Source: Methanosaeta sp. PtaB.Bin039 (GTDB lineage: Archaea; Halobacteriota; Methanosarcinia; Methanotrichales; Methanotrichaceae). Taken from it: 64,000 nucleotides of DNA. The translations under genes were made by a program, and so were the position numbers. Of this stretch, positions 24,897 through 53,562 are shown in pieces. The notes beneath the pieces were generated by a model. It searched no databases. It saw only the letters and a program-made list of their open reading frames with translations, and had not been told where the DNA came from. How positions within the stretch are numbered: the stretch's first letter is position 1; the number at the start of each line of letters is the position of its first letter. Location of the stretch: assembly GCA_002067795.1 (NCBI GenBank), contig MVQI01000020.1, positions 1 to 64,000 of the forward strand, in the 5' to 3' direction.

Positions 24897-26636
24897 TCAA
24901 CGGCGATGAAACATCCTCTCCAGCTCCTGCCAATCAACTGCAACCATGGTTGGCCTGCCATGAGGGCAGGCTCGCGGGTTGCGGCATCTAAGCAGGTCGT
25001 CGAGCAGTCGTCGCATCTCCTCGGGATTGAGGCGGCGTCCGGACTTGATGGAGCGGCGGCAGGCCAGCATCTTGAGGAGATCGTCCTGAGAGCTTGACCT
25101 CTGGGGTTTGCCCTGGGCCAGTATGTCGAGCAAGACCTCCCTCACGCCTTCGGGTCTGTCGAGCCTCGGTGCGGTTGCTGGAACCGAGCGCACCATGAAG
25201 CTTCTGCCGCCAAATGGCACGATCTCAAACCCCACATCCTTCAGCCGGTCCAGCCATGATTCGAGAAGCATCTCCTCCCTGGCGGAGAGCTCGAGCATGA
25301 TCGGCTCCAGCAGCTCCTGAGACATGCTTCCTTCGGCAAACCGCCTTTGCAGCGACTCGTAAGCCACCCGTTCCGCAGCAGCGTGCTGGTCTATCAGGAC
25401 CAGCTCTTGCCCGTCCTCAGCAATGATATACAGGTCGAGGGCCTGACCAAGTATCCGCAGCTGCCTCGACTGTCGGCCGCCCGTCACAGGTTTTGCCGTC
25501 TTAAGAGAATCGTCGTCTGCAGCCCCCAGCCTGACCTTCACCGGCTGATCAGACTGCGACACCTCCATGGGGAGAAGCTTCTGCTGTGCAGATAGGTCCA
25601 TGCTCTCGGACTGTGGCGTTCCGGTGCGCACCGGGACTGCTGTCGGGCCCATGGCGCCCAGCGCGGCGACAACCGCGTCCTTGAGCAGCTGGCAGATGAT
25701 CTCCTCATGCAGGAAGCGCACCTCTCTCTTGGCCGGATGCACGTTAACGTCGACCTCCTCCGGGTTGACATCCAGTGATATTACGGCAATGGGTTCCCTT
25801 CCCAATGGAAGCAGAGTGCGAAAGGCTTCTCTTACGGCGCCCTGAAGGGCCTTTGAGTGTATCGGCCGCCCATTGACGTAGAGGTGTATCCAGTCGGGGC
25901 TCGCCCGGCTGCTTGATGGGCTGCAGACTACACCGCGTATCGCCAGGCCAGGGCCCTCGCCGACCACCTCATGAAACCCCCTGGCCACGTCAAGTCCGAA
26001 TGCGCTGACAAGCACCTGGTCCCAGCTCGCGGAGCGGACCGAGCGAAAGAGCGTGCGTTTGCCTGTAAACAGCTCAAAGGAGATCTCAGGGTGGATTATG
26101 GCAGCCGATGTCACCGTCTCCACGACCCGAGATAGCTCCGATGATGCCGAGCTGAGGTGCTTTCTGCGTGCTGGGACGTTTCGGAAGAGGTCTCTCACCG
26201 CCATGCTGGTTCCAGCCGGGCATCCCGCATCCTTGACAGAGGCCACCGATCCGTCAACGATACGCAGGAATGTCCCAGCTTCAGCCTGCTTTGGCTTCGT
26301 GTGGACGTCCACCTGGGCTGCCACGCTGGCTATGGCAGCCAGGGCTTCGCCCCGAAATCCAAGGGTATGTATGCGGGTCAGGTCATCTGCCCCTGATATC
26401 TTGCTTGTGGCATGGCGCGAAAAGGCCATCAGTGCGTCCTCCCGGTCCATGCCGCAGCCGTCGTCCACCACCCTGATCAGTGTCTTGCCACCGTCCTCAA
26501 CCTCTATCAGGATCCGGGACGCTCCGGCATCGATCGAGTTCTCAACAAGTTCCTTTACCGCTGAAGCCGGCCTCTCCACGACCTCGCCTGCGGCGATCTT
26601 GTTTATAGTATCCGCATCAAGCAGCCTGACCTTCAT
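24897..26636 (-). CDS. mutL: DNA mismatch repair protein MutL
   Basis: 579 residues. The GHKL ATPase domain shows ELVENSIDAGA (30-40), DDGCGM, and GFRGEALAAI (93-102); the transducer domain has PAKREVRF. The C-terminal domain contains DQHAAAERVAYE (416-427), an exact DQHA-x2-E-x4-E metal-binding endonuclease motif, plus ACRRSIKSG near 525 and CPHGRP at 557-562. It should therefore be a nicking MutL, as in organisms without MutH. It overlaps mutS by 4 bp (ATGA). Bacterial-type MutSL is scattered in archaea and usually attributed to transfer. Confidence 0.97.
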   Translation of the reverse strand: MKVRLLDADTINKIAAGEVVERPASAVKELVENSIDAGASRILIEVEDGGKTLIRVVDDGCGMDREDALMAFSRHATSKISGADDLTRIHTLGFRGEALAAIASVAAQVDVHTKPKQAEAGTFLRIVDGSVASVKDAGCPAGTSMAVRDLFRNVPARRKHLSSASSELSRVVETVTSAAIIHPEISFELFTGKRTLFRSVRSASWDQVLVSAFGLDVARGFHEVVGEGPGLAIRGVVCSPSSSRASPDWIHLYVNGRPIHSKALQGAVREAFRTLLPLGREPIAVISLDVNPEEVDVNVHPAKREVRFLHEEIICQLLKDAVVAALGAMGPTAVPVRTGTPQSESMDLSAQQKLLPMEVSQSDQPVKVRLGAADDDSLKTAKPVTGGRQSRQLRILGQALDLYIIAEDGQELVLIDQHAAAERVAYESLQRRFAEGSMSQELLEPIMLELSAREEMLLESWLDRLKDVGFEIVPFGGRSFMVRSVPATAPRLDRPEGVREVLLDILAQGKPQRSSSQDDLLKMLACRRSIKSGRRLNPEEMRRLLDDLLRCRNPRACPHGRPTMVAVDWQELERMFHRR

Positions 26637-29254
26637 CTACGGTCCTCCTTGTCGTCGGCGCTGCTGCCAAGCCTTGCCTTTAGCTGGGATAGGAAGTTCA
26701 AGGCCTGTAGAGGTGTCAACCGATCCAGCTCAAGATGCCGGATCTCCTCGATCAGCGGATGAGCCGGCGGCTGGGCCAGTCCGCCGCCCGCAGCCGGCTG
26801 GTCGAAGAATATCAGCTGGGTGTAGCGGCTGCCGCGGGCCAATCTCTCCTTCTTCTGTCCTGCCCTGACCTCTATGGCAGCTTGCTGCTCTATCTCTATT
26901 AGCACCTCCTCCGCCCTCCTGATCACCTGATCCGGTACCCCGGCCAGCCTGGCCACCTGTATCCCGTAGCTGCGGTCGGTGGCCCCGGGAACCACCCGTC
27001 GCAAGAATATGATCTCAGATCCCTGCTCCTGAACAGCCATGTTGAAGTTCACGACGCCAGGCGTGCATCCAAGCTGGGTGATCTGGTGGTAATGGGTGGC
27101 AAAGATGGTCTTGGCACCAATGCGGTTGTGAATGAACTCGGTCACGGCCCAGGCTATGGAGAGCCCGTCGAAGGTGCTTGTGCCCCGGCCTATCTCGTCG
27201 AGCAGGATCAGGCTCTTTGACGTCGCTGTTTTCAGTATATGGGCAAGTTCGCTCATCTCAACCATAAAGGTGGACTGTCCAAGCACGAGGTCGTCCCTGG
27301 CCCCAACCCTTGTGAAGATGCGGTCCACGAGGCCCAGTGAGGCATAGGCAGCCGGAACGAACGATCCCATCTGAGCCATGATCACGGTGAGGGCTATCTG
27401 CCTCATGAAGGTGGATTTTCCGGCCATGTTGGGGCCTGTTAGTATCATGAACCTGCTCTCCCGGTCCAGCCTGACGTCATTTGGAACGAAGCCGCCCCGC
27501 ATGGCACGCTCGAGCACAGGATGGCGAGAGTCCCGAAGAACGATTGCCCCCTGGTCGTTCAGATCCGGGCGGGTGAGATGGCCGTCCAGAGCGGTCTGGG
27601 CCAGTGAGAGCAGGGCGTCCAGCTCCCCCAGGGCCTGGGTCAGGCTGCGCACCTCTGCAGAACGCTCGGCAGCCGCGGCTCGCAACGAGTTGAATATCTC
27701 ATACTCAAGAGATGTGGACCGCTCCTGGGCTGAGAGCACCCTGGCCTCCATCTCCTTTAAGGCCGGCGTCACAAATCGCTCGGCGTTGGCCAGGGTTTGC
27801 TTGCGCTCGTACTCCTCCGGGACCGAGGTGAGATTTGCCCGGGTCACCTCTATGTAGTATCCGAATACGTTGTTGTATCCTATCTTAAGGGACCGGATCC
27901 CGGTTCGCTTCCGCTCCTCCACCTCAAGTCGAGAGATCCAGCCACGGCCGTCCTGGAGCAGAGCCCTCAGGTCGTCAAGCTCCTTATGGTATCCTTCGCG
28001 CACGATGCCTCCTTCCCTGGCCGAGATCGGCGGCTCGTCGTTCAGGGACCTGGATAGGAGATCTGGCAGGTCGTGCAGCCCTTGAAGATCCAGCCTCTGA
28101 GAGATCTCCCGAAGGTAACCGGACCTCGCGTCGGAGAGCGACTCTCTCAGACCGGGGACCCTGTACAGAGCTCCCCTCAATGCAGCCATGTCTCTTGGGG
28201 TTGCCACGCCCAGGGAGATCCGGCCCATTATCCTCTCAATGTCGCCAAGACCCTGCAGCCCGGATGCCAGCTCCTCCCGCATTAGAGCAGCCTCTGCCGT
28301 CTCCCAGACCGCATCAAGACGCCGATTGATTGTGTCTGGCGAGAGCGAGGGCATCTGAAGCCAGCGGGCTATCATGCGGGATCCCATGGGGGTCTGGGCG
28401 CGGTCAAGGAACTCCAGAAGGGTACCCCGGCGGGAACCGTCCCTGGTGCTCTTCAGTATCTCGAGGTTGCGCAGGGTCACCTCATCTATTATCATGAACT
28501 GGGATGCGGTGCAAAGCTGAATGGTCCTGATGTGTCCCAGCGCATCGAGGCGGGATTTGTGAAGGTAGTCCAGGACAGCTCCTGCCGCCCGAAGCGCAAG
28601 CGGCAGTCCCTCAGACCAGGAGAGGTCTTCCAGCTGATCCTTCAGAAGGCCTCGCGCCCGGTCGAGATCGAATGCCAGCTGGGGCAGCATCTGGATGTGG
28701 GCAGCCTTCCAGCCGCATGTCGCGCCCTCGGGCACCAGGCACTCTGCCGGATCGAACCTGGCCAGCTCCGATGCGGTCTGCTCCTCATCCACCTCGGTGG
28801 CCAAAAACTCCCCTGTTGAGACGTCAAGAAAAGCCAGGCCGGTCCTGCCGCCCTCCGGGCACAGGGCGCACAGATAGTTATTGGCCTTGTCCCGCAAAAG
28901 GCAGTCCTCTATGACCGTTCCCGGGGTAACAACCCGGATCACCTCCCTCTTGACCAGGCCACGGGCAGCCTTTGGGTCCTCCATCTGCTCGCAGATCGCC
29001 ACTTTATGCCCGGCGGCCACCAGCTTTCCAAGGTAAGTGTCCAGGGCATGGTAGGGAATCCCGGCCAGCGGTATCTTATTGCCCTCGTCGTCTTTCTGGC
29101 GTGATGTGAGGGTGATGTTGAGGTCTCGGGCGGCCAGCACCGCATCGTCCCCAAAGGTCTCGTAGAAGTCACCCATTCGAAAGAGGAGCAGAGCATCCGG
29201 ATTCTGCTGCTTGGCCGAAAAGTACTGGTTCATGAGGGGTGAAAGCCTGGCCAT
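26633..29254 (-). CDS. mutS: DNA mismatch repair protein MutS
   Basis: 873 residues from ATG 29254 (AGGAGAT upstream); a TTG 12 codons earlier is possible. The mismatch-binding Phe-x-Glu motif is present (GDFYETFGDDA, FYE at 30-32). Walker A GPNMAGKS lies at about 606-613, followed by the SSTFMVEM-type segment, Walker B ILLDEIGRGTS and the FATHYHQIT switch. The C-terminus has the short helix for dimer/tetramer formation. This is MutS1, the mismatch-recognition type, not MutS2, and it is co-translated with the MutL endonuclease. Confidence 0.97.
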   Translation of the reverse strand: MARLSPLMNQYFSAKQQNPDALLLFRMGDFYETFGDDAVLAARDLNITLTSRQKDDEGNKIPLAGIPYHALDTYLGKLVAAGHKVAICEQMEDPKAARGLVKREVIRVVTPGTVIEDCLLRDKANNYLCALCPEGGRTGLAFLDVSTGEFLATEVDEEQTASELARFDPAECLVPEGATCGWKAAHIQMLPQLAFDLDRARGLLKDQLEDLSWSEGLPLALRAAGAVLDYLHKSRLDALGHIRTIQLCTASQFMIIDEVTLRNLEILKSTRDGSRRGTLLEFLDRAQTPMGSRMIARWLQMPSLSPDTINRRLDAVWETAEAALMREELASGLQGLGDIERIMGRISLGVATPRDMAALRGALYRVPGLRESLSDARSGYLREISQRLDLQGLHDLPDLLSRSLNDEPPISAREGGIVREGYHKELDDLRALLQDGRGWISRLEVEERKRTGIRSLKIGYNNVFGYYIEVTRANLTSVPEEYERKQTLANAERFVTPALKEMEARVLSAQERSTSLEYEIFNSLRAAAAERSAEVRSLTQALGELDALLSLAQTALDGHLTRPDLNDQGAIVLRDSRHPVLERAMRGGFVPNDVRLDRESRFMILTGPNMAGKSTFMRQIALTVIMAQMGSFVPAAYASLGLVDRIFTRVGARDDLVLGQSTFMVEMSELAHILKTATSKSLILLDEIGRGTSTFDGLSIAWAVTEFIHNRIGAKTIFATHYHQITQLGCTPGVVNFNMAVQEQGSEIIFLRRVVPGATDRSYGIQVARLAGVPDQVIRRAEEVLIEIEQQAAIEVRAGQKKERLARGSRYTQLIFFDQPAAGGGLAQPPAHPLIEEIRHLELDRLTPLQALNFLSQLKARLGSSADDKEDRR

Positions 29255-29328
29255 CTGCTGGCATCTCCTGAAAACCAAGAGCACCTCCAAGGTTAATTAC
29301 CGCTTCGCTCAATAGCAGGCAGGCCTGC

Positions 29329-37483: not shown

Positions 37484-37599
37484 GAGAGTGCGAAAGGATT
37501 GGGAGTAGGTGAAATCCGGGCCTGTTCGATCCGATCTGTCCCCGCGCCGGAGTGACACCTGCCTCCGTTAATGAGATCCGAGATAATGAGGGATTGACG

Positions 37600-39465
37600 A
37601 TGAGGTTAATGGTATCTCCAATTGTTTTTCCTGCTAAAGTCCAGGTGGCGATCTGCTTGATGCTGATCTGCCTGGCTGGATCATCCCTGGGGGCTTTTCC
37701 AGGAGAAATGGCAAAGTTAGATACAAGTCGGACAGCAGGCGCCATCGCGTCTGGCCAGATACCTGAAAGGGCGGAACTCCTTCAGATCCCTTCGGCAATA
37801 AATGAGGATGCTGCTGCCCAGCTGGTTCAAGATGCCGTTGTTGCTCCGATCCTCCAAAATATTGACCCGAGCAAGGGTATCAGGGTGCTGCAGCACGATA
37901 AGATCCTGGCTAAAGGCGCAGTAGTGGAGCCGGCAATCACATTGCCGGGCCAGCGATCCAAGAGGATGGTGGCTCAGAACCCAAGCTGGCTGTTCATGAT
38001 AGACGAGATGCCGGGAGCGCACTTTGCCCACCCGGTCAGGCTGGTCTTGGTGGATGCCAGTACAGGAGCGAGGCAGGAGATTGAGACCGATTGGTGGCCA
38101 AAGGTGAACGATGTCCAGCTCTTCGATAAGGAGGCTTTGCGAACCGATCCGGCGCTCACAACATTTTACCGCGAGCCTTCAGCCGAGGTCAAGGTAAGCG
38201 CCGCGTCCGGTCTTCTCGAATGGCCGGGCGGCATTCAGCCGGTGATCAATTGCGATATCTGGGCGGTCCTGGTCTGCGGGTACGACGACCTGCCCGACTC
38301 CTTCGACGACGACACCAACGGGATGTACAGCGTGCTAAGGAGCCTGGGCGTTCCTGACGACCATATATTCTATGTCAGTCCTCATGCGAGCCATGCTGGC
38401 GTGGACCGACCAACCAGCAGAAGCAATGTTCTCTGGGCGATCAATGAGGTTGCGTCCAGGTCGGATGTAAAGGACAAGGTTCTCTTCCTGTATAGCTCGC
38501 ACGGCAACGTAAACTTCGTTTCCTGCGTACCTGGAAGCCCGGACGGCGGCTCGATTACGGCCGATGAGATGGACAGCTGGTTGGACGCGATCAGCTGCAA
38601 AGAGATGACCATCATCATCGAGGCGTGTCACAGTGGGAGCTTCATCGGTAAATATAAAGACGGAACCTATGTGGCTGCGGAGAATGAGCTGACCGGTGAC
38701 GGTGAGAACAACCGCATTGTGTTCACATCAGCTTCCAGCGACACATCATCCTGGCCGGATGTGGACGGGGATTCCGATCCCAATCCATCGGACACGGGAA
38801 GCGAGAGCATTTACGGGTATATAATGGCCTTTGGCGTCGCCTCTGCAGATACTGATGGCAACGGGCGGATCTCTTTTGGCGAGGCATATCAGTACGCCTG
38901 GGACAACGACGTAACTCGCATTCTCGACTGGAACATGCCCCAGATGATTGCCGCAGGACTAAAAGCGGCGAATGTCTACCACCAGTGCCTGCAGAACGAG
39001 TGCTACCCGAACCTCCCAAGCCCAGTTCTGACCCTTGTCGGCAAGGAGGATTACACGACCAGCAGCGGAGAGTTCACCAGATATAAACTCTCTGTGACCA
39101 ACTGGAATGCCTACCCTTCGGAGCTGTTTCAGTCTGCGCCGGATCTGCCACCCTGCGGCCTGAATGCCGAGTCGTCCAGGACGTGGGTGGATATCTACGA
39201 TCAAAAGAAGATTCGCCTCTACGGATTTTGCGCTCTTGGAACCGCGTCGGATCTGCAGAGCCTGTGGTTTGCGGTAAAGAAGGGAGAGACACCACCTCAG
39301 GGGGTCTATATTGTGATGAAGGATCGGAGGTGCAACCAGGACTACACCTCAAATAAGGTGACCATTGAGCCCAAGACCCTTGCGGTCTCGCCCATCAAGG
39401 CGAGAACCCTGATTGAGGCGCCGGCAAAGGCCATGGAGACGATGAAATATATTTCCACATCCTAA
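37600..39465 (+). CDS. Secreted legumain-like C13 (caspase-fold) cysteine peptidase
   Basis: 621 residues from ATG 37600 with GAGGG nearby; a frame start at 37552 would hide the signal peptide (MRLMVSPIVF...GAFPGE). After an N-terminal domain shared with the preceding gene (about 65-195) comes a caspase-fold domain (about 215-450). WAVLVCGYDDLPDSFDDDTNGMY opens it; catalytic His301 lies in LYSSHG and Cys343 in IIEACHSGSF, the clan CD arrangement of peptidase family C13. A calcium-loop-like DTDGNGRISFGEAY follows near 425. The C-terminal 170 residues are unassigned. Legumains cleave after Asn; specificity here is unknown. Acts outside the cell. Confidence 0.9.
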   Translation: MRLMVSPIVFPAKVQVAICLMLICLAGSSLGAFPGEMAKLDTSRTAGAIASGQIPERAELLQIPSAINEDAAAQLVQDAVVAPILQNIDPSKGIRVLQHDKILAKGAVVEPAITLPGQRSKRMVAQNPSWLFMIDEMPGAHFAHPVRLVLVDASTGARQEIETDWWPKVNDVQLFDKEALRTDPALTTFYREPSAEVKVSAASGLLEWPGGIQPVINCDIWAVLVCGYDDLPDSFDDDTNGMYSVLRSLGVPDDHIFYVSPHASHAGVDRPTSRSNVLWAINEVASRSDVKDKVLFLYSSHGNVNFVSCVPGSPDGGSITADEMDSWLDAISCKEMTIIIEACHSGSFIGKYKDGTYVAAENELTGDGENNRIVFTSASSDTSSWPDVDGDSDPNPSDTGSESIYGYIMAFGVASADTDGNGRISFGEAYQYAWDNDVTRILDWNMPQMIAAGLKAANVYHQCLQNECYPNLPSPVLTLVGKEDYTTSSGEFTRYKLSVTNWNAYPSELFQSAPDLPPCGLNAESSRTWVDIYDQKKIRLYGFCALGTASDLQSLWFAVKKGETPPQGVYIVMKDRRCNQDYTSNKVTIEPKTLAVSPIKARTLIEAPAKAMETMKYISTS

Positions 39466-46154: not shown

Positions 46155-47177
46155 CTATAGTTGGTACAGTTTGTCGTAGAAGCTGGTATCGAAGAGCTCC
46201 TGCTCTGTAACCTCCTTTTGTGTGTACTGAATCTGGTACTGGAACTTGGAGAACTCCAGCGTATCGTTTATCAGGAGATGGGGGTCGGTCAGCCATGCCC
46301 CATCCCAGGTCTGGATCGAGTGCTCCACCATGGCAAGGTCCTGACCGGTGTGGTTGGAGTATATGCGGGCCGCCTCATCAGGATGGGCATTCGCATACTC
46401 GGTGGCATTGATATGCGTCTTTATTATCTGGGTGACCAGCTCCGGATAATCCCTGATCAATCTGCCGCTCACCCCGATGCCGCAGCAGGCGTGGTTTGGC
46501 CACATCTCTCCCGACGTTATGACCGTCCTGCCCTTTTTGGACATCTCTATTATCGCTGGGGCAGGATGAGGCAGAAATACGCCGTCACCCTTGCCTTCGA
46601 TCATAAAGGCCACGGCATCCCCAGGCCCCATGGCGGTTATGTTCACATCAGAGATATTCACCCCGTTGCTGGCCAGCCACTTCTTCAGAAGGGTGTCCTG
46701 GGCGGTGCCTGGCGGAAACGTACCTATGTGAAGGCCTTTCAAAGACGCCGGCCCATCATACGCGATGTCGGGCCGCAAGACCAGGCTCGAGCCGTTTGTA
46801 TTGACTGCGACAACGATCTTTGCATCCAGCCCCTTGGATACAGGCAGTATAAAGGGACTGCTGCAGAGATAGGCAATATCGAGATCCCCGGCCTCCATGG
46901 CTTTCAACTGAGGGCCTCCTGTTGGAAATCCGAATTCCTTTATCTCGGTTATCCCAAATTGTTTTAGATCCTCCTTCCACCATCCCATCTCTGTTGCAAC
47001 CATCTCTGCCACATGATGTGTCGTAGGCTGGTAACCGATACGCAGGGTATTGATCCTGTCAGGAACATTCTCCGTGCGCGGAGCGGATATACATCCTATA
47101 GAAGCAAGGATTAACGCAAACAGAAGAATCAGAGAGACCAGCTTCTTCAAGGCAACCACCTCTGTAACTATGTTCAT
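46155..47177 (-). CDS. NitT/TauT-type ABC substrate-binding lipoprotein
   Basis: 340 residues. A lipoprotein-type signal with ILASIGC (Cys29) anchors it outside the membrane; a TTG nine codons in (47150), preceded by GAGGTGG, is an alternative start. The mature part is SsuA/NMT1-like: LRIGYQPTTHHVAEMVATEMGWW, KAMEAGDLDIAYLCSSP, GLHIGTFPPGTAQDTLLKKWLA. Ligands of this family include nitrate, sulfonates, taurine and pyrimidine precursors. No permease or ATPase gene is adjacent, so the partner transporter is elsewhere or the protein is a receptor. It is 72 bp downstream of the MBL/kinase-like gene on the same strand. Confidence 0.88.
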   Translation of the reverse strand: MNIVTEVVALKKLVSLILLFALILASIGCISAPRTENVPDRINTLRIGYQPTTHHVAEMVATEMGWWKEDLKQFGITEIKEFGFPTGGPQLKAMEAGDLDIAYLCSSPFILPVSKGLDAKIVVAVNTNGSSLVLRPDIAYDGPASLKGLHIGTFPPGTAQDTLLKKWLASNGVNISDVNITAMGPGDAVAFMIEGKGDGVFLPHPAPAIIEMSKKGRTVITSGEMWPNHACCGIGVSGRLIRDYPELVTQIIKTHINATEYANAHPDEAARIYSNHTGQDLAMVEHSIQTWDGAWLTDPHLLINDTLEFSKFQYQIQYTQKEVTEQELFDTSFYDKLYQL

Positions 47178-47248: not shown

Positions 47249-48970
47249 CTAGAAAGACTTGCATGGAAGAAAGTCGATCTGGACCCCACAACCAGTTTCA
47301 GATGCATATTCCTGTATGATTCCGCCACAACTGGAAAATGCCCTCTCCAGAAATCTCATCGCCTGGGGGTCCAAAGGCGCCCTGCATCCGATATCTAAGG
47401 CGACTATTCGAATCGAGACCCAGCCCGAGACCATGGAAGGGACGACCATGATCTTCCTGGCTCCTGACACGCAGAACCGCTCCAGCAGGTCGATCAGCGA
47501 TTCGCTGAAGCGTTCCACGTCCATGCGAACGAACGGTAGTTCCGGACCCGACTCCAGTTCGATGTCTGCCCCGTCAAGCACGTCGATGTGAGCTATCCTT
47601 GTGCGAAGAGCATACAAAAAGTCCTCATAGCTATCGGCCTGAATGATCTCCCCATCCTCATATGGTTTAAATCCAATCTGTTCGAGCACGCCTGCCAGGA
47701 CGCCGTTTATATCAACATCGGTAGCGTAATAGTTTGGCTTGAAGCCCCGATATACGATCGAGTAGTCGTTGAATATCCTGCCAGCCCGCATCAAAAGCGA
47801 GCTGTCCAGAACCGAGCCAAGCTCCCTGCTGCCCAGGACCTGCTCCAGTTTGGCGATGATCTGGCCGGCCTTGTGAACCAGATCGAGGTCGATCCTATGG
47901 CCACCCTTTAGCTCCAGAGCGAATCTCTGAAATTCGATGAACAACTCCTCGATAGCCTCAAGGTCCATAATTGAGCGAAGACGATCTGCTTCCCCGCCCT
48001 CCTCCAGTTCTTCCAGCACGTGAGATACGTATAGCAGCCTTCCCAGGATTATTGATAAGAGCCGCTCCAACTCGACCATCATGTCCTGGGCGTAGGCTGA
48101 CGTGCTCCTCGCCCAGGCCAGAGTAATCTCCTCCAGTCCCTGCAGGGACTTTACGTCCTGGTACATGGATCGTAGTGTATTCCAGGCGGTGTCGGCATTT
48201 ACCGTCCGGCCGTGACCGGAGCAGCAGAGGAGGATGTTCTTCCTCTCAAGGATCCAAAGCACTCTATGTATGGTCTTCAGCAGCTCCGACTGGCTCCAAC
48301 CATAGGCCCCTGCCATGCCAGAGTTGGGCGCGAAGAACAGGTCTCCGGTAAAGAGCAGCCGCCCTGCCCTCAGGCATATGCTATCGGGGCTGTGGCCGGG
48401 AGTTGAGTAGATCTCCAGGAGATCGTGGCCGTTGAGGGGGATAGTCTGGTAATCCAGGGTCGGACCATAAGGGACCTTCACCGACCTGTATTGACAGGAA
48501 TACACAAATTTGCCCAGCGACAGATCTCTTCGCACATCTCTGCACATATCCCCGGAACATAAGAGCCGGATATCGACCGAGATGCGGTCCATCTTCCTGC
48601 CCAGGAGTCGGCAAAGTGTCAGGTCCGGATCTGCCGCTTCCAGGGCAAGGGCTCCTGCCTCCTGGGCAGCCAGAATGACCGGCCAAAGATCACGATTGTT
48701 CCGCAGGCGCCCAATGCCCTGGCAGTGATCCATATGGGCATGAGTCAGGTAGACCACCACCGGCCTCGGCCTGTCCTCAAGCATGCCAATAACAACGCGG
48801 GCCATCGAATCGATCTGCTCGTCCAGGGCCCCTGGATCTATCCAGGCGATCTGCTTCTCTGCAGAGAGTATGTATGAGTTTGAGGACATCAGGTCGATTT
48901 TCCTTATGAATGGGAATATCTCCACCCCTTGCGTTCCGGGGACCTGCTGAAGGACGCCTGACTCTATCAT
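47249..48970 (-). CDS. Metallo-beta-lactamase domain fused to histidine-kinase-like module
   Basis: 573 residues from ATG 48970 (GGTGG upstream); a TTG at 49018 lies too close to the expected transcription start. Residues 1-250 are a metallo-beta-lactamase fold with His77-x-His79-x-Asp81-His82 (THAHMDH), STPGHSPDS, FTGDLFF and CSGHGR metal ligands. From about 270 the chain is helical like a dimerisation domain (two long Leu/Glu helices), then a region resembling a degenerate HATPase: NDYSIVYRGF, VDINGVLAGVLEQIG, and a late SCGGIIQEYASETGCGVQIDF. No phosphoacceptor His in a normal H-box and no clear ATP-lid glycines, so it may bind but not transfer phosphate. Divergent from the sensor phosphatase gene; likely part of the same signalling system (inference). 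Confidence 0.75.
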   Translation of the reverse strand: MIESGVLQQVPGTQGVEIFPFIRKIDLMSSNSYILSAEKQIAWIDPGALDEQIDSMARVVIGMLEDRPRPVVVYLTHAHMDHCQGIGRLRNNRDLWPVILAAQEAGALALEAADPDLTLCRLLGRKMDRISVDIRLLCSGDMCRDVRRDLSLGKFVYSCQYRSVKVPYGPTLDYQTIPLNGHDLLEIYSTPGHSPDSICLRAGRLLFTGDLFFAPNSGMAGAYGWSQSELLKTIHRVLWILERKNILLCCSGHGRTVNADTAWNTLRSMYQDVKSLQGLEEITLAWARSTSAYAQDMMVELERLLSIILGRLLYVSHVLEELEEGGEADRLRSIMDLEAIEELFIEFQRFALELKGGHRIDLDLVHKAGQIIAKLEQVLGSRELGSVLDSSLLMRAGRIFNDYSIVYRGFKPNYYATDVDINGVLAGVLEQIGFKPYEDGEIIQADSYEDFLYALRTRIAHIDVLDGADIELESGPELPFVRMDVERFSESLIDLLERFCVSGARKIMVVPSMVSGWVSIRIVALDIGCRAPLDPQAMRFLERAFSSCGGIIQEYASETGCGVQIDFLPCKSF

Positions 48971-49030
48971 GACCACCAACTGCCGAAAAATCGTGCCGTG
49001 GATACGATACACCCACAATCAGGTCAGATT

Positions 49031-49040
49031 CATATTTAAT
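49031..49040 (-). promoter_or_regulatory. TATA box for MBL/kinase-like gene
   Basis: ATTAAATATG on the minus strand, about 60 bp from the ATG at 48970, in the 219-bp divergent region shared with the sensor gene. Confidence 0.45.
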
Positions 49041-49189
49041 GATTATCTTTAATAGCCTTGAATGCATCTTATGAAATATGGATCCTCCTGCGGACAGTTG
49101 CAGGATAGAACAGCAGGTTTATGATCATCAAGGATCAAAAGTAGCGACTCGGCTAAGTCCACCCAGTGTCTTGGGGACGGGGCCATGAT

Positions 49190-52100
49190 ATGAATCTGCG
49201 CGAGAAGACCCTGATCGTGGTTGGAATCTCGCTATTTCTTCTGATAGTGATCTTATATACAGCAGCGCAGATCGAATTGATGATCAGCTACTCCAACTTG
49301 GAGGAGAACGTAGCCAAGCAGGATGTGGAAAAAGCCCTCAACGCTTTTGAGGCAGACCTCTCAAGCTTAAGAGCGCTGGCCAGGTTCTGGGCTTCCAGAA
49401 ACGACACGATCTCCCTGATGGAGGGCGACAGTCCTTCTCCTGCTGCCGTCAAATACTTGAACGAAGCCATCAGCAACGAGAGCCTTCGCAACGTGGATAT
49501 CGACCTGCTCTTGTTCATGAACTCCTATGGCCAGGAGGTCTACCATAGGTACCTGGATGCAAGCGGCGAGGCTCGAAATCTCCCCGAAGACCTTCCTGCC
49601 CAGCTGATCCTTTACGGATTTTGTCCGGGATGCCTCGACAAGCGGAGTTCCTCTTCGGGGATGATAATCCTCTCTGGAACACCGATGCTGATCGTTGCCG
49701 TCCCTATAGTCGAGAACCAGGAGGCTCACACATCTTCAGGGAGGGTGGTTGTAGGACGCTATTTGGACAGCAGGGAGATCTCAAGGCTATCTCAGATCAC
49801 CCAGCTGAACCTGACAGTGTATGCCATAAGCGACACAGGGCGAATGCCCACGGATTTTCTGAAGATCCTGCCTGATCTTTTGGAAGGACGTCTCATGCAG
49901 GTACAGCTGCTCAGCCAGGATCGTATCGGCGGTTACTCCATCCTGAATAATATATACGGCAATCCACTCCTGGTCCTTCGCGTCGATACGCCACGTAATA
50001 TCTATCGGCAGGGCATGAGCAGCCTGACGAACTTCATTATCCTGTTCTCCGTGGCTGGATTTGCCTTTCTTGCCCTGACCTTGATATACCTCGACAGAAC
50101 CGTGCTCTCGATGCTGGCCTTCATCACCTCAGGGGTCGCCAGCATAGCAGAGAGCCAGAACTTGACATCCCGGCTGGCAGTCAAGGGACGCGACGAGCTG
50201 TCACATCTGGCCATCTCCATCAACTCCATGATTGAGGCCCTGCAAAAAGCCCATGAGGACTTAAGCGAGAGCGAGAAACGATATAAAGCCGTGGTGGAAG
50301 AGCAGTCGGACCTGATCATCAGAAATCTGGCTGACGGAACCATAAACTTCGCCAACGATGTATTCTGCGAGTACCTTTCCACGCATAGGGATAATATCAT
50401 CGGCCAGAAGATAGACGACCTGATCCCCCCGGAGAATCTGAATACCGTAGAGACTGCCGTTGCAGCTCTGAGCCTGGAAAATCCCACCGTGGTATTTGAG
50501 ACGAAGCTGAGCAGTCCAAAGGGAATAAAGTGGATCCAGTGGACCAGTCATGCTATATTCGACGGTTCTGCGCAGCTGGCTGAGATTCAATCCGTGGGAA
50601 GGGACATCACCCAGCTCAAGCAATCCGAAGAAGCGCTGCGACAAAGCGAGGAACGATACCGTCTGGTCTCAGAGAATACCAACGATGTGGTTACCCTCCA
50701 CGACATGAATATGCGCTATTTATATATATCACCATCAATGCTAAATCAGACTGGATACAGCCCGGAGGAGTTGATCGGCAAGTCGCCATTGGACATAATC
50801 TACCCAGAGGATATAAAATATAACGTGGATTCTCTAGCAGAGCTCATCGCCCGTAAGACGCCGTTGAGACTCGAGTATCGGGTTCGCATAAGGGACGGAT
50901 CACTGGTCTGGGTAGAGACGACGGCAAATCCGGTACTGGACGCAAACGGCAAGATGGTCTACATACAGGGCACACACAGGAACGTTAATGAGCGCAAGCA
51001 GGCTGAACAGGACCTTAAGGAATCCCGGCAGCTGATGTCAGACCTTATCAGCTTCTTGCCCGACGCCATAGTGGCAATCGACCTCGACGGCCGTATCACG
51101 TTTTGGAACAGGGCTATGGAAGCCTTGACAGGCGTCGAATCCAAGTATATGCTGGGCAAGAGAAACTATGAACACTCGCTGCCGTTCTATGGGATGAGAA
51201 GGCCAATACTCATCGATATGGTATTGAGATCTTACCAGGATATGGAGGGGGAGTACATAAGGTTTCAGCGGGAGGGCACAGCGGTTACTGGCGAGGTCTT
51301 TATACCCACATTTGGGCCCAAGGGATCTTACCTCCTTGGAAAAGCTACCGCCCTTTACGATTCCTCAGGCAAGATCATAGGGGCCATCGAATCCATCAGG
51401 GACATAACCGAGAGCAGAACTATGGAGAAGCAGCTCGACCTCAATCGGGCCGAGCTTCATGTCGCCGCCCTGATCCAGCAGAGCTTCATTCCGGACAGGG
51501 ATCCGGATGTGCCGGGATTTCAGCTGGCTTCCATCACCAGGCCTGCCATGGAGGTGGGTGGGGACTTCTACGACTTCATCATGCAGCCGGATGGAAGATG
51601 CAGCCTGGTCATAGCGGATGTTGCCGGAAAGAGCATCTCGGCTGCGCTCTTCATGGCGCTGTCCAGGACCATTGTCCGTGCAAATGCCACAAATCAGCCG
51701 AATCTGACCGAGGTCCTTAAGAGCACCAACAAGATGATCGCCGCCGAAGCTCCGGAGGGCATGTTCGTCACACTCATATACGGCGTGCTTGACGGCCGGG
51801 ACCAGAGCTTCCGATATGGCAACGCCGGCCATCCGCCACCGCTCGTCTTCAGATCTAATGGCCGCTCTCTTGAAGAGGAGTCGTCGTCCGATGTTGCCCT
51901 GGGAGCGATGGAGGGCGCTTTATACAGGGAGCGCCTCCTTAGATTTTGCAGCGGGGATGTCGCGCTGTTCTACACCGACGGCGTCACTGAGACCATGGAT
52001 GCCGATGGTCGGATGTATGGGACCGATAGGTTGATCGAGGTGGTCAGGAGGTCCTGCACGAAGAGCGCCCAGCAGATAATCGATGATATCCTGGCAGACA

Positions 52101-52585
52101 TATCCGCCTTCAGCGGGAGCAGAGAGCAACATGATGATATCACCATGGTGGCAGTAAAGGCCCTGGACCCTATTGGAGGTCACCTGAAGCTTCAGATTGC
52201 CGCCGACGAGCAGCAGATTCCAGCGCTAATGGACCAGATAGAACGGATGATGTCGGATGGCGGATTTGCCAGAGAGAAGATCCTGGATATGCAGGTAAGC
52301 GTTGAAGAGGCATGCGTGAACATAATACATCACGGTTACCGCCATGAGCCTGGAATCATATCCATCGGACTTTATCTGGAAGAGGATGCTTTGCAGATAA
52401 CGATCGAGGACGATGCTCCGCCCTTCGATCCCACCAAGTTCGATAAGCCTAACCTGGTCCAGAATCTGGATGAGCGCCCCATAGGCGGGCTTGGAATTCT
52501 CATGATGAAATCGATGACCGACGATCTCCGATACGATTTTGCAGGCGGCAAGAACCGGCTCACCCTGACCAAGAGGAGGGATTGA
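49190..52585 (+). CDS. Membrane sensor with PAS repeats, SpoIIE phosphatase and RsbW-like kinase domains
   Basis: 1131 residues from ATG 49190. TM1 (about 7-27), an extracellular sensor of about 250 residues resembling CHASE4, TM2 (about 278-300), HAMP (about 300-355), then three PAS domains (about 359-480, 485-608, 611-745). A PP2C/SpoIIE phosphatase follows (about 755-985) with metal-binding Asp in EVGGDFYDF, VIADVAGKS, FYTDGVTE and QHDDITMV. The C-terminal domain (about 995-1131) is an RsbW-type HATPase with N-box EEACVNIIHHGY and GGLGILMM. Such domains control STAS antagonists by opposing dephosphorylation and phosphorylation; here both activities are in one chain. Two STAS genes follow directly. 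Confidence 0.92.
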   Translation: MNLREKTLIVVGISLFLLIVILYTAAQIELMISYSNLEENVAKQDVEKALNAFEADLSSLRALARFWASRNDTISLMEGDSPSPAAVKYLNEAISNESLRNVDIDLLLFMNSYGQEVYHRYLDASGEARNLPEDLPAQLILYGFCPGCLDKRSSSSGMIILSGTPMLIVAVPIVENQEAHTSSGRVVVGRYLDSREISRLSQITQLNLTVYAISDTGRMPTDFLKILPDLLEGRLMQVQLLSQDRIGGYSILNNIYGNPLLVLRVDTPRNIYRQGMSSLTNFIILFSVAGFAFLALTLIYLDRTVLSMLAFITSGVASIAESQNLTSRLAVKGRDELSHLAISINSMIEALQKAHEDLSESEKRYKAVVEEQSDLIIRNLADGTINFANDVFCEYLSTHRDNIIGQKIDDLIPPENLNTVETAVAALSLENPTVVFETKLSSPKGIKWIQWTSHAIFDGSAQLAEIQSVGRDITQLKQSEEALRQSEERYRLVSENTNDVVTLHDMNMRYLYISPSMLNQTGYSPEELIGKSPLDIIYPEDIKYNVDSLAELIARKTPLRLEYRVRIRDGSLVWVETTANPVLDANGKMVYIQGTHRNVNERKQAEQDLKESRQLMSDLISFLPDAIVAIDLDGRITFWNRAMEALTGVESKYMLGKRNYEHSLPFYGMRRPILIDMVLRSYQDMEGEYIRFQREGTAVTGEVFIPTFGPKGSYLLGKATALYDSSGKIIGAIESIRDITESRTMEKQLDLNRAELHVAALIQQSFIPDRDPDVPGFQLASITRPAMEVGGDFYDFIMQPDGRCSLVIADVAGKSISAALFMALSRTIVRANATNQPNLTEVLKSTNKMIAAEAPEGMFVTLIYGVLDGRDQSFRYGNAGHPPPLVFRSNGRSLEEESSSDVALGAMEGALYRERLLRFCSGDVALFYTDGVTETMDADGRMYGTDRLIEVVRRSCTKSAQQIIDDILADISAFSGSREQHDDITMVAVKALDPIGGHLKLQIAADEQQIPALMDQIERMMSDGGFAREKILDMQVSVEEACVNIIHHGYRHEPGIISIGLYLEEDALQITIEDDAPPFDPTKFDKPNLVQNLDERPIGGLGILMMKSMTDDLRYDFAGGKNRLTLTKRRD

Positions 52586-52701
52586 GCCCAAGTCGATATC
52601 GCCGATGGCAGGAATTGCACGAGGCAGATGTTGGGCTATTTCAGAAGCGAGGGAGAGACGCCCGCATGACCAGAGATTATTCAGTGTCGAGGTGATGCCG
52701 G

Positions 52702-53067
52702 ATGGAAATAAGGGAGAAGGCGATCGGTGACGTCTATATAGTGTCTATCGAGGGCAGGATGGACACTGCCAACTCAAAGGATGTCGAGTCCAGGCTGGAC
52801 CAGGTGATTGAGGACAAACGGGAGAAGATGCTCATAGATCTGGCTGGGGTCGACTACATAAGCAGCGTGGGGCTGAGGGTCCTTCTGGCCTCCTTGAAGA
52901 GGCACAGGGAGAGGCGGGGCAAGATGGCCTTGATCTCCCTGCAGCCCTTTGTCCAGGACGTGTTTCGGATAACAGGACTTGAGAAGATATTTCCCATTTA
53001 CAGCAGCGAGGCTGAAGCAATGGCATGCTTCAAGCCAAATGATGCAGAGAACTGCAGTAACCCTTGA
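52702..53067 (+). CDS. STAS-domain anti-sigma-factor-antagonist-like protein 1
   Basis: 121 residues with GAGGTGATG before the ATG. The SpoIIAA/RsbV fold is plain: VYIVSIEGRMDTANSKDVESRLDQ, KMLIDLAGVDYISSVGLRVLLASLKRH. The phosphorylatable loop is I53-S54-S55-V56-G57-L58. The residue aligned with SpoIIAA Ser58 is Val56, so Ser54 or Ser55 would have to be the phosphosite, as proposed for many ISSxGLR-type antagonists. It follows the sensor kinase-phosphatase gene by 116 bp on the same strand and is its probable substrate. Confidence 0.92.
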   Translation: MEIREKAIGDVYIVSIEGRMDTANSKDVESRLDQVIEDKREKMLIDLAGVDYISSVGLRVLLASLKRHRERRGKMALISLQPFVQDVFRITGLEKIFPIYSSEAEAMACFKPNDAENCSNP

Positions 53068-53211
53068 GTGAGATAAACGAGCTGAATCGACCTGCCCCGT
53101 TAAGGATTACATGGAAATAGAATGGCCGCCATTGTTGAGGGACAGCGTTTGCCCGGCGGTTTTGCGCGCACATCAGGAATTTCAGGGCGTCGATATTGGA
53201 GCAATGGTACC

Positions 53212-53562
53212 ATGGATATCAGGGAGAGCATCTTGGGAGACGTGACGGTGATCTCGATATCGGGCAGGATAGATCTCACCTCGGTCGGCGAGCTGGAAGC
53301 CCGGCTCAACAAAGCGATAGATGTCAGCTCCATGATCGTTATAGATCTCGAAGAGACCGCCTATATCAGCAGCTCGGGGCTGCGCGTGCTGCTTGCAGGT
53401 CTCAAGAGGCTTGGGAGGCAAAACGGGCATATGAGGCTGGCAGCTCCTCAACTGATGGTCAGAAACGTCCTGGAGATCTCCGGACTATGCAACCTTTTCT
53501 CGATCCAGCGCAACCTGAAAGAGGCCCTGGATAGCCTTCAGGCGGTCGGGAAAATATCCTGA
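53212..53562 (+). CDS. STAS-domain anti-sigma-factor-antagonist-like protein 2
   Basis: 116 residues from ATG 53212 (GGAG upstream); the longer frame from 53122 adds a non-conserved tail. Same fold as the preceding protein: VTVISISGRIDLTSVGELEARLN, MIVIDLEETAYISSSGLRVLLAGLKR. Here the loop is ISSSG, with Ser55 exactly at the SpoIIAA Ser58 position. The two STAS proteins are paralogues from a local duplication and may differ in how the kinase-phosphatase treats them. Confidence 0.9.
   Translation: MDIRESILGDVTVISISGRIDLTSVGELEARLNKAIDVSSMIVIDLEETAYISSSGLRVLLAGLKRLGRQNGHMRLAAPQLMVRNVLEISGLCNLFSIQRNLKEALDSLQAVGKIS

Follow-up and report, generated by a model that had tools for sequence, protein, structure and literature searches.

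A partner-switching gene module with a metallo-beta-lactamase fold protein as candidate output in a methanogen without a detectable sigma factor

The 64,000-nt stretch analyzed here (the window) is the beginning of contig MVQI01000020.1 from Methanosaeta sp. PtaB.Bin039, whose genome comprises 2.45 Mb and is 96% complete. It contains four genes resembling a bacterial partner-switching module: a gene for a membrane sensor with phosphatase and kinase domains, two following genes for STAS switch proteins, and a divergent gene for a protein composed of a metallo-beta-lactamase (MBL) domain and a degenerate histidine-kinase-like half, called MBL-pHK below (Table 1). The sensor, STAS and MBL domains named in a preliminary description of this locus are all recovered by Pfam in the places assigned to them. 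According to the comparison with homologues, MBL-pHK, the sensor and STAS2 probably start at more internal ATG codons (~48970, 49190 and 53212, respectively).

Table 1. Features of the module, its neighbor and related loci. Coordinates are those of the window unless a locus is named.
Feature	Coordinates	Strand	Basis
Substrate-binding lipoprotein, NMT1/SsuA-like (lipobox-like ...LASIGC)	46155..47177	-	Pfam NMT1_2 1.8e-34; SsuA_fam below cut-off
MBL-pHK, 589 aa: metallo-beta-lactamase domain and degenerate histidine-kinase-like half; candidate output enzyme	47249..49018	-	Lactamase_B 45-256 (1.4e-10)
C-terminal half of MBL-pHK, residues ~290-585: helical part and degenerate CA-like domain	47264..48151	-	hhalign
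Divergent intergenic (shared promoter) region, MBL-pHK / sensor	48971..49189	.	Divergent order kept in layouts A and B
Membrane sensor CHASE4-HAMP-PAS-PAS-PAS-SpoIIE-RsbW-type kinase, 1139 aa	49166..52585	+	Pfam, motifs; probable start 49190
SpoIIE/PPM serine phosphatase domain of sensor	51587..52159	+	PF07228 1.8e-51; metal-site motifs intact
HATPase_c_2 (RsbW/SpoIIAB-type serine kinase) domain of sensor	52196..52573	+	PF13581 1.4e-27
STAS1 switch protein, predicted phospho-Ser55 (YISSVGLR)	52702..53067	+	Pfam STAS PF01740 3.6e-24
STAS2 switch protein, predicted phospho-Ser in YISSSGLR	53122..53562	+	Pfam STAS PF01740 3.6e-18
Second host-genome locus: STAS, 5TMR-LYT SpoIIE, NCS2-type permease with RsbW-like tail	L081 5830-9447 (G000:C41)
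STAS proteins of ~435 aa	L195 11399-12709, L196 11946-13253, L200 4630-5937, L223 11547-12845, L225 9153-10418, L226 5346-6653

The sensor begins with a CHASE4 domain (residues 60-219, 5.8e-25) flanked by hydrophobic segments (residues ~15-36 and ~289-310), followed by HAMP (321-360, 1.2e-6), three PAS stretches, SpoIIE (808-998, 4.8e-50) and HATPase_c_2 (1012-1136, 3.6e-26). The metal-binding motifs of the phosphatase are intact (GGDF at 798, IADVAGKS at 816, YTDG at 936, HDDIT at 989), as are the N-box (EEACVN at 1047) and the glycine box (GGLGI at 1107) of the kinase; the first G-box reads EDDAPPF, with A in the position where many kinases have G. Both STAS proteins carry the predicted phosphorylatable Ser, which is kept in 72/72 aligned STAS domains, and in the STAS tree STAS2 is the sister paralogue of STAS1. 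Thus a SpoIIE phosphatase, a GHKL kinase and a phosphorylatable STAS protein, the components that define partner switching, are all encoded together. Given the motifs and their conservation, the module very probably is a working kinase-phosphatase-STAS switch.

The profile search of the host genome yields three SpoIIE and three STAS domains and a single HATPase_c_2 match, that of the sensor, while nothing exceeds the family cut-off for sigma-70 region 2 (best E 0.1). Since no sigma factor is detectable, the sigma-binding step of a sigma-B or sigma-F type anti-sigma/anti-anti-sigma system has no counterpart in the host genome, and the module is not such a system. The earlier suggestion of partner switching in an archaeon that has no sigma factor is thus upheld, and with it that of a target other than a sigma factor: our comparison favors an enzyme, MBL-pHK, plus a transporter in sister loci (see below).

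The window module is built from the same three families of components as RsbU/RsbW/RsbV and SpoIIE/SpoIIAB/SpoIIAA of Bacillus, and their catalytic motifs are conserved, but it lacks the sigma factor, has the kinase and phosphatase fused, and is accompanied by the divergent MBL-pHK gene. This fusion had been considered unusual in the preliminary description, a claim that falls in view of several precedents. SypE of Vibrio fischeri is a response regulator, without a CHASE4 membrane sensor. It is described as both serine kinase and serine phosphatase for SypA, a STAS protein, and no sigma factor is known as its target (PMC8256260). In Rv1364c of Mycobacterium tuberculosis PAS, phosphatase, anti-sigma and STAS domains are fused (PMC12143880), and the bacterial loci L046 and L053 have kinase and phosphatase domains within one frame. 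The window module resembles SypE-SypA in uniting serine kinase and phosphatase domains within one chain, in its single-domain STAS proteins and in the lack of a known sigma target, and differs in its CHASE4 membrane sensor, archaeal origin, two STAS proteins and the linked MBL-pHK gene. With Rv1364c it shares PAS domains, a SpoIIE-type phosphatase and an RsbW-type kinase in one polypeptide; unlike Rv1364c, which includes STAS and belongs to a sigma-factor network, it has separate STAS proteins and no sigma factor. Among archaea, REC-SpoIIE response regulators are mentioned in passing for the Arc I group, solely as domains combined in draft genomes (PMC5847659). They too have a SpoIIE-type phosphatase as a signaling output, but in the relevant passage no STAS, kinase or target accompanies it.

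In MBL-pHK, the seven metal ligands (H93, H95, D97, H98, H209, D226 and H269) are invariant in 43/43 homologues, forming the full di-metal set of a metallo-beta-lactamase superfamily hydrolase. Because of this invariance, MBL-pHK probably is an active metallo-hydrolase. The ~300 residues after Lactamase_B have no Pfam match in MBL-pHK, and none that is convincing across 18 homologues; a profile search of PDB gave significant matches confined to the MBL half. The alignment of profiles relates the C-terminal half to histidine-kinase ATPase domains (hhalign 57%, P 1e-4; unrelated controls below 2%), the value of 57% being suggestive at most. The features of a histidine kinase are lacking: the N-box Asn is replaced (by Glu in 42/43 homologues), the G-boxes are absent, and, as for a phospho-accepting His, His382 is kept in 20/43 homologues only. 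Hence this half is at most a pseudokinase. A pseudo-RsbW domain was considered for it and rejected, as hhalign finds no relation to RsbW-type HATPases (1.7%), and a degenerate histidine-kinase domain is therefore preferred. Of the "MBL/kinase-like fusion" initially proposed, the MBL part is confirmed, while the kinase-like part is seen in the profile comparison alone and is degenerate.

The co-occurrence of the four genes in related genomes, put forward earlier as a check of the module, was analyzed in the host family (50 genomes in 11 genera, many of them drafts with short contigs). The window genes co-occur in at least 18 related loci, well above chance, in several rearranged layouts. In layout A (the window and ten further loci, complete or partial) the MBL gene is divergent from the fused sensor-phosphatase-kinase gene, which is followed by STAS1 and STAS2. 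In layout B (L074, L075, L091, L093) it is divergent from a PAS-SpoIIE gene followed by STAS and a separate kinase, and in layout C (L085, L086, L088, L089) the MBL gene, whose strand varies, adjoins STAS, SpoIIE and kinase genes. Layout D (L081 in the host genome, L097, L098, L228) consists of STAS, SpoIIE and permease genes, with neither kinase nor MBL gene. Hence, the kinase often has a gene of its own (as in layouts B and C), and MBL-pHK is a constant partner in layouts A, B and C. Where flanking sequence suffices, the distance from MBL-pHK to SpoIIE does not exceed 1.3 kb (19/19 family loci), and in layouts A and B the gaps between the divergent open reading frames are short (19-344 bp where the pair is adjacent). 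Such conservation of a gene set through rearrangement is stronger evidence for joint function than plain synteny. No other constant output gene was found among the module neighbors; a transcription factor and a universal stress protein were considered for this role and rejected, being present in few loci only.

In a wider sample of 394 genomes of the phylum, MBL-pHK is present in 46, spanning 16 genera and five families. Outside the host family, STAS is fused to MBL-pHK or lies within 2 kb of it in 16 of the 24 copies examined (chance probability ~3e-21 if the loci were independent, which they are not). In other methanogen families MBL-pHK forms an operon with a STAS gene; at L207 a CHASE4 hybrid histidine kinase, a STAS gene and MBL-pHK make up one same-direction row; and in L192 and L193 STAS is part of the same chain, C-terminal of the pseudokinase part. 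Among 19 bacterial genomes with related SpoIIE genes, a single weak match to MBL-pHK was obtained, in the MBL half only. The fusion and the linkage mark MBL-pHK as the best candidate partner of STAS, and since every layout already has its own sensor, it is also the best candidate output. Overall, we consider with slightly better than even confidence that partner switching by this archaeal module acts on something other than a sigma factor, and that MBL-pHK would be the output controlled by STAS.

Further domain combinations were also seen. Proteins of ~435 residues, which join STAS at the N-terminus to a conserved C-terminal part, adjoin the kinase gene in other methanogen families, and this C-terminal part (in L195, L196, L223, L225 and L226) has no match to the module profiles. 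In L102 (8516-9982) a GNAT acetyltransferase domain is fused to a HATPase_c_2 kinase.

In layouts C and D, a nucleobase-type permease of the NCS2 type usually follows the SpoIIE or the kinase gene. In the second host-genome locus (L081, contig C41) the SpoIIE protein, the one C/D-type member scanned, has a membrane 5TMR-LYT sensor instead of CHASE4. The permease core matches Xan_ur_permease (PF00860, 3.3e-54), which assigns it to the NCS2 type; its score against the xanthine permease pbuX (257.9 bits) is below the cut-off of 414.15, hence the substrate is not assigned. The protein carries an additional C-terminal domain of ~116 residues, which aligns with RsbW-type kinases of the same loci (hhalign 92%, P 5.8e-7, 110 columns; five controls below 1%), though HATPase_c_2 is not matched by Pfam. 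As the N-box Asn and the glycine box are absent at the aligned positions, we read this tail as a non-catalytic relative of RsbW kinases. A STAS domain was also tried for it and rejected (hhalign 0.2%, no relation). Control of a transporter linked to STAS recalls the SLC26/SulP transporters with their C-terminal STAS, but here the permease is of the NCS2 type, is not fused to STAS, and has a tail similar to the kinase and not to STAS.

In the phylum sample, MBL-pHK is present in 15 of the 18 genomes with this permease, compared to 46/394 overall (P 7e-13, uncorrected for kinship). In the host family, a kinase is located in another locus in 8/8 detected genomes with the kinase-less layout D. Since the window kinase is the sole one detected in the host genome, it may serve the C41 locus too, and the two loci are probably connected. 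The chance that the permease is also an output, in addition to MBL-pHK or in its place, we put just short of even. L216, L220 and L222 contain tandem NCS2-type permease genes, each with a version of the pseudokinase tail. L211 (1255-3690) encodes an 811-aa fusion protein of STAS and a TCAD9 (ternary complex associated) domain. Its gene is next to that of the permease, with SpoIIE and kinase genes nearby, and the protein is possibly another output.

The substrate-binding lipoprotein gene next to MBL-pHK adjoins the module, at either end, in 8/8 CHASE4-type loci whose flanks are long enough, and is beside it in none of the loci with other layouts or sensors. No gene for an ATP-binding cassette (ABC) ATPase or permease was recognized among the neighboring window genes examined. 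The lipoprotein may present a ligand to CHASE4 and so belong to the input. Elsewhere in the window, a 637-aa protein with a caspase/peptidase C13-like domain (37552-39465, plus strand; Peptidase_C14 3.8e-7) and adjacent MutS and MutL genes of bacterial-type mismatch repair (24897-29290, minus strand) are encoded in this archaeal DNA.

From sequence, we infer phosphorylation, STAS docking, control of the hydrolase and the permease, and the identity and direction of the signal, as follows. CHASE4 would read an extracellular signal, probably presented by the adjoining lipoprotein, and the PAS domains an internal one, and these would set the balance between the kinase and phosphatase activities of the same chain. 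The RsbW-type kinase would phosphorylate the conserved serine of STAS1 and STAS2, with the SpoIIE phosphatase reversing it. In one phosphorylation state, the STAS proteins would dock on MBL-pHK, at its degenerate kinase-like half, and so determine how active it is; the window kinase may act likewise on the STAS-SpoIIE-permease locus of C41.

Several observations weigh against such outputs. The similarity of the C-terminal half of MBL-pHK to kinases is only suggestive, as was already mentioned, and the single-sequence structure model of the protein is of low confidence (pLDDT 36). Outside the host family, 8 of 24 MBL-pHK loci have no STAS within 2 kb (in four of these it is 5.2-5.5 kb away), thus the link is not obligatory. 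The permease is absent from the window locus, 11 of the 26 permease loci have neither STAS nor SpoIIE within the available flanking sequence, and kinship inflates the co-occurrence statistics. Finally, the fusion and the operon partnership indicate association and not its direction, thus MBL-pHK could act upstream of the switch.

One alternative is that MBL-pHK is an input, its MBL domain being a sensor (for example a di-metal redox or oxygen sensor, or a hydrolase making or destroying a signal) that tunes the kinase/phosphatase balance or STAS, the output being unlinked. MBL folds do serve as sensors elsewhere (ODP-type), and weak ODP matches are seen here in 3/18 members (best E 0.12). The above-mentioned row in L207, as well as an MBL-pHK gene following a REC-PAS-PAS gene in L206, indicate that MBL-pHK can attach to different signaling proteins. 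Still, the ligands are those of the hydrolase set (HxHxDH, H, D, H) in 43/43 homologues, and each layout already has a sensor of the CHASE4, PAS or 5TMR-LYT type with no other constant output gene, which makes this alternative rather unlikely.

Somewhat less likely still, the permease of the sister locus could be the main output, with the window module as its kinase and sensor station and MBL-pHK as a further sensor or a metabolic enzyme of the pathway. The pseudo-RsbW tail of the permease is consistent with this, as are the lack of a kinase of its own in the host STAS-SpoIIE-permease locus, the clustering of STAS, SpoIIE, kinase, permease and MBL-pHK genes in genus g7 (L085, L086, L089), and the convergent permease and MBL-pHK genes of L208, with 13 bp between them. 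On the other hand, the permease is undetected in nine family genomes that have MBL-pHK (several of them incomplete), and its pbuX score is below the cut-off.

Control of transcription, with STAS binding an archaeal regulator encoded elsewhere (a TFB paralogue or a helix-turn-helix protein) and MBL-pHK being a separate or accessory neighbor, appears improbable. Partner switches classically end in transcription, and three relatives (cluster c9: L064, L069, L073) have a TFB-like gene close to the module, but this gene is confined to closely related loci and absent both beside the window module and in other layouts. The constant neighbors include no transcription factor, and two genomes have the STAS-MBL-pHK fusion. 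Chance neighborhood or a non-functional relic of bacterial origin is hardly credible given the conserved gene set across rearranged layouts, the intact motifs, the invariant ligands and the phospho-Ser, even though the broken copy in G047 (L095, with stop codons in the phosphatase and a fragmented MBL-pHK gene, as though the whole module were decaying together, in a draft assembly) indicates that the module can be lost.

Not foreseen in the preliminary description were the probable output role of MBL-pHK, the sister loci with a permease and the orphan binding protein; no description of archaeal partner switching, MBL-pHK or a pseudokinase permease was found in the open-access literature (subscription papers were outside the search). 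Partner switching is known mainly for the control of sigma factors, and its non-sigma targets are often unknown (as in the case of SypA), so archaea that possess the full module yet lack sigma factors offer a natural experiment on other uses of the switch. The fusion of STAS with MBL-pHK and the pseudokinase tail of the permease name specific targets that can be tested with purified proteins, a route open even though many of these organisms have no genetics. As a tentative generalization, in methanogens the anti-sigma switch may have become a direct post-translational control of effectors, with STAS docking on degenerate kinase-like domains of a metallo-hydrolase and an NCS2 permease and with no transcription factor involved; if this is true, kinase-derived domains act here as sockets for STAS.

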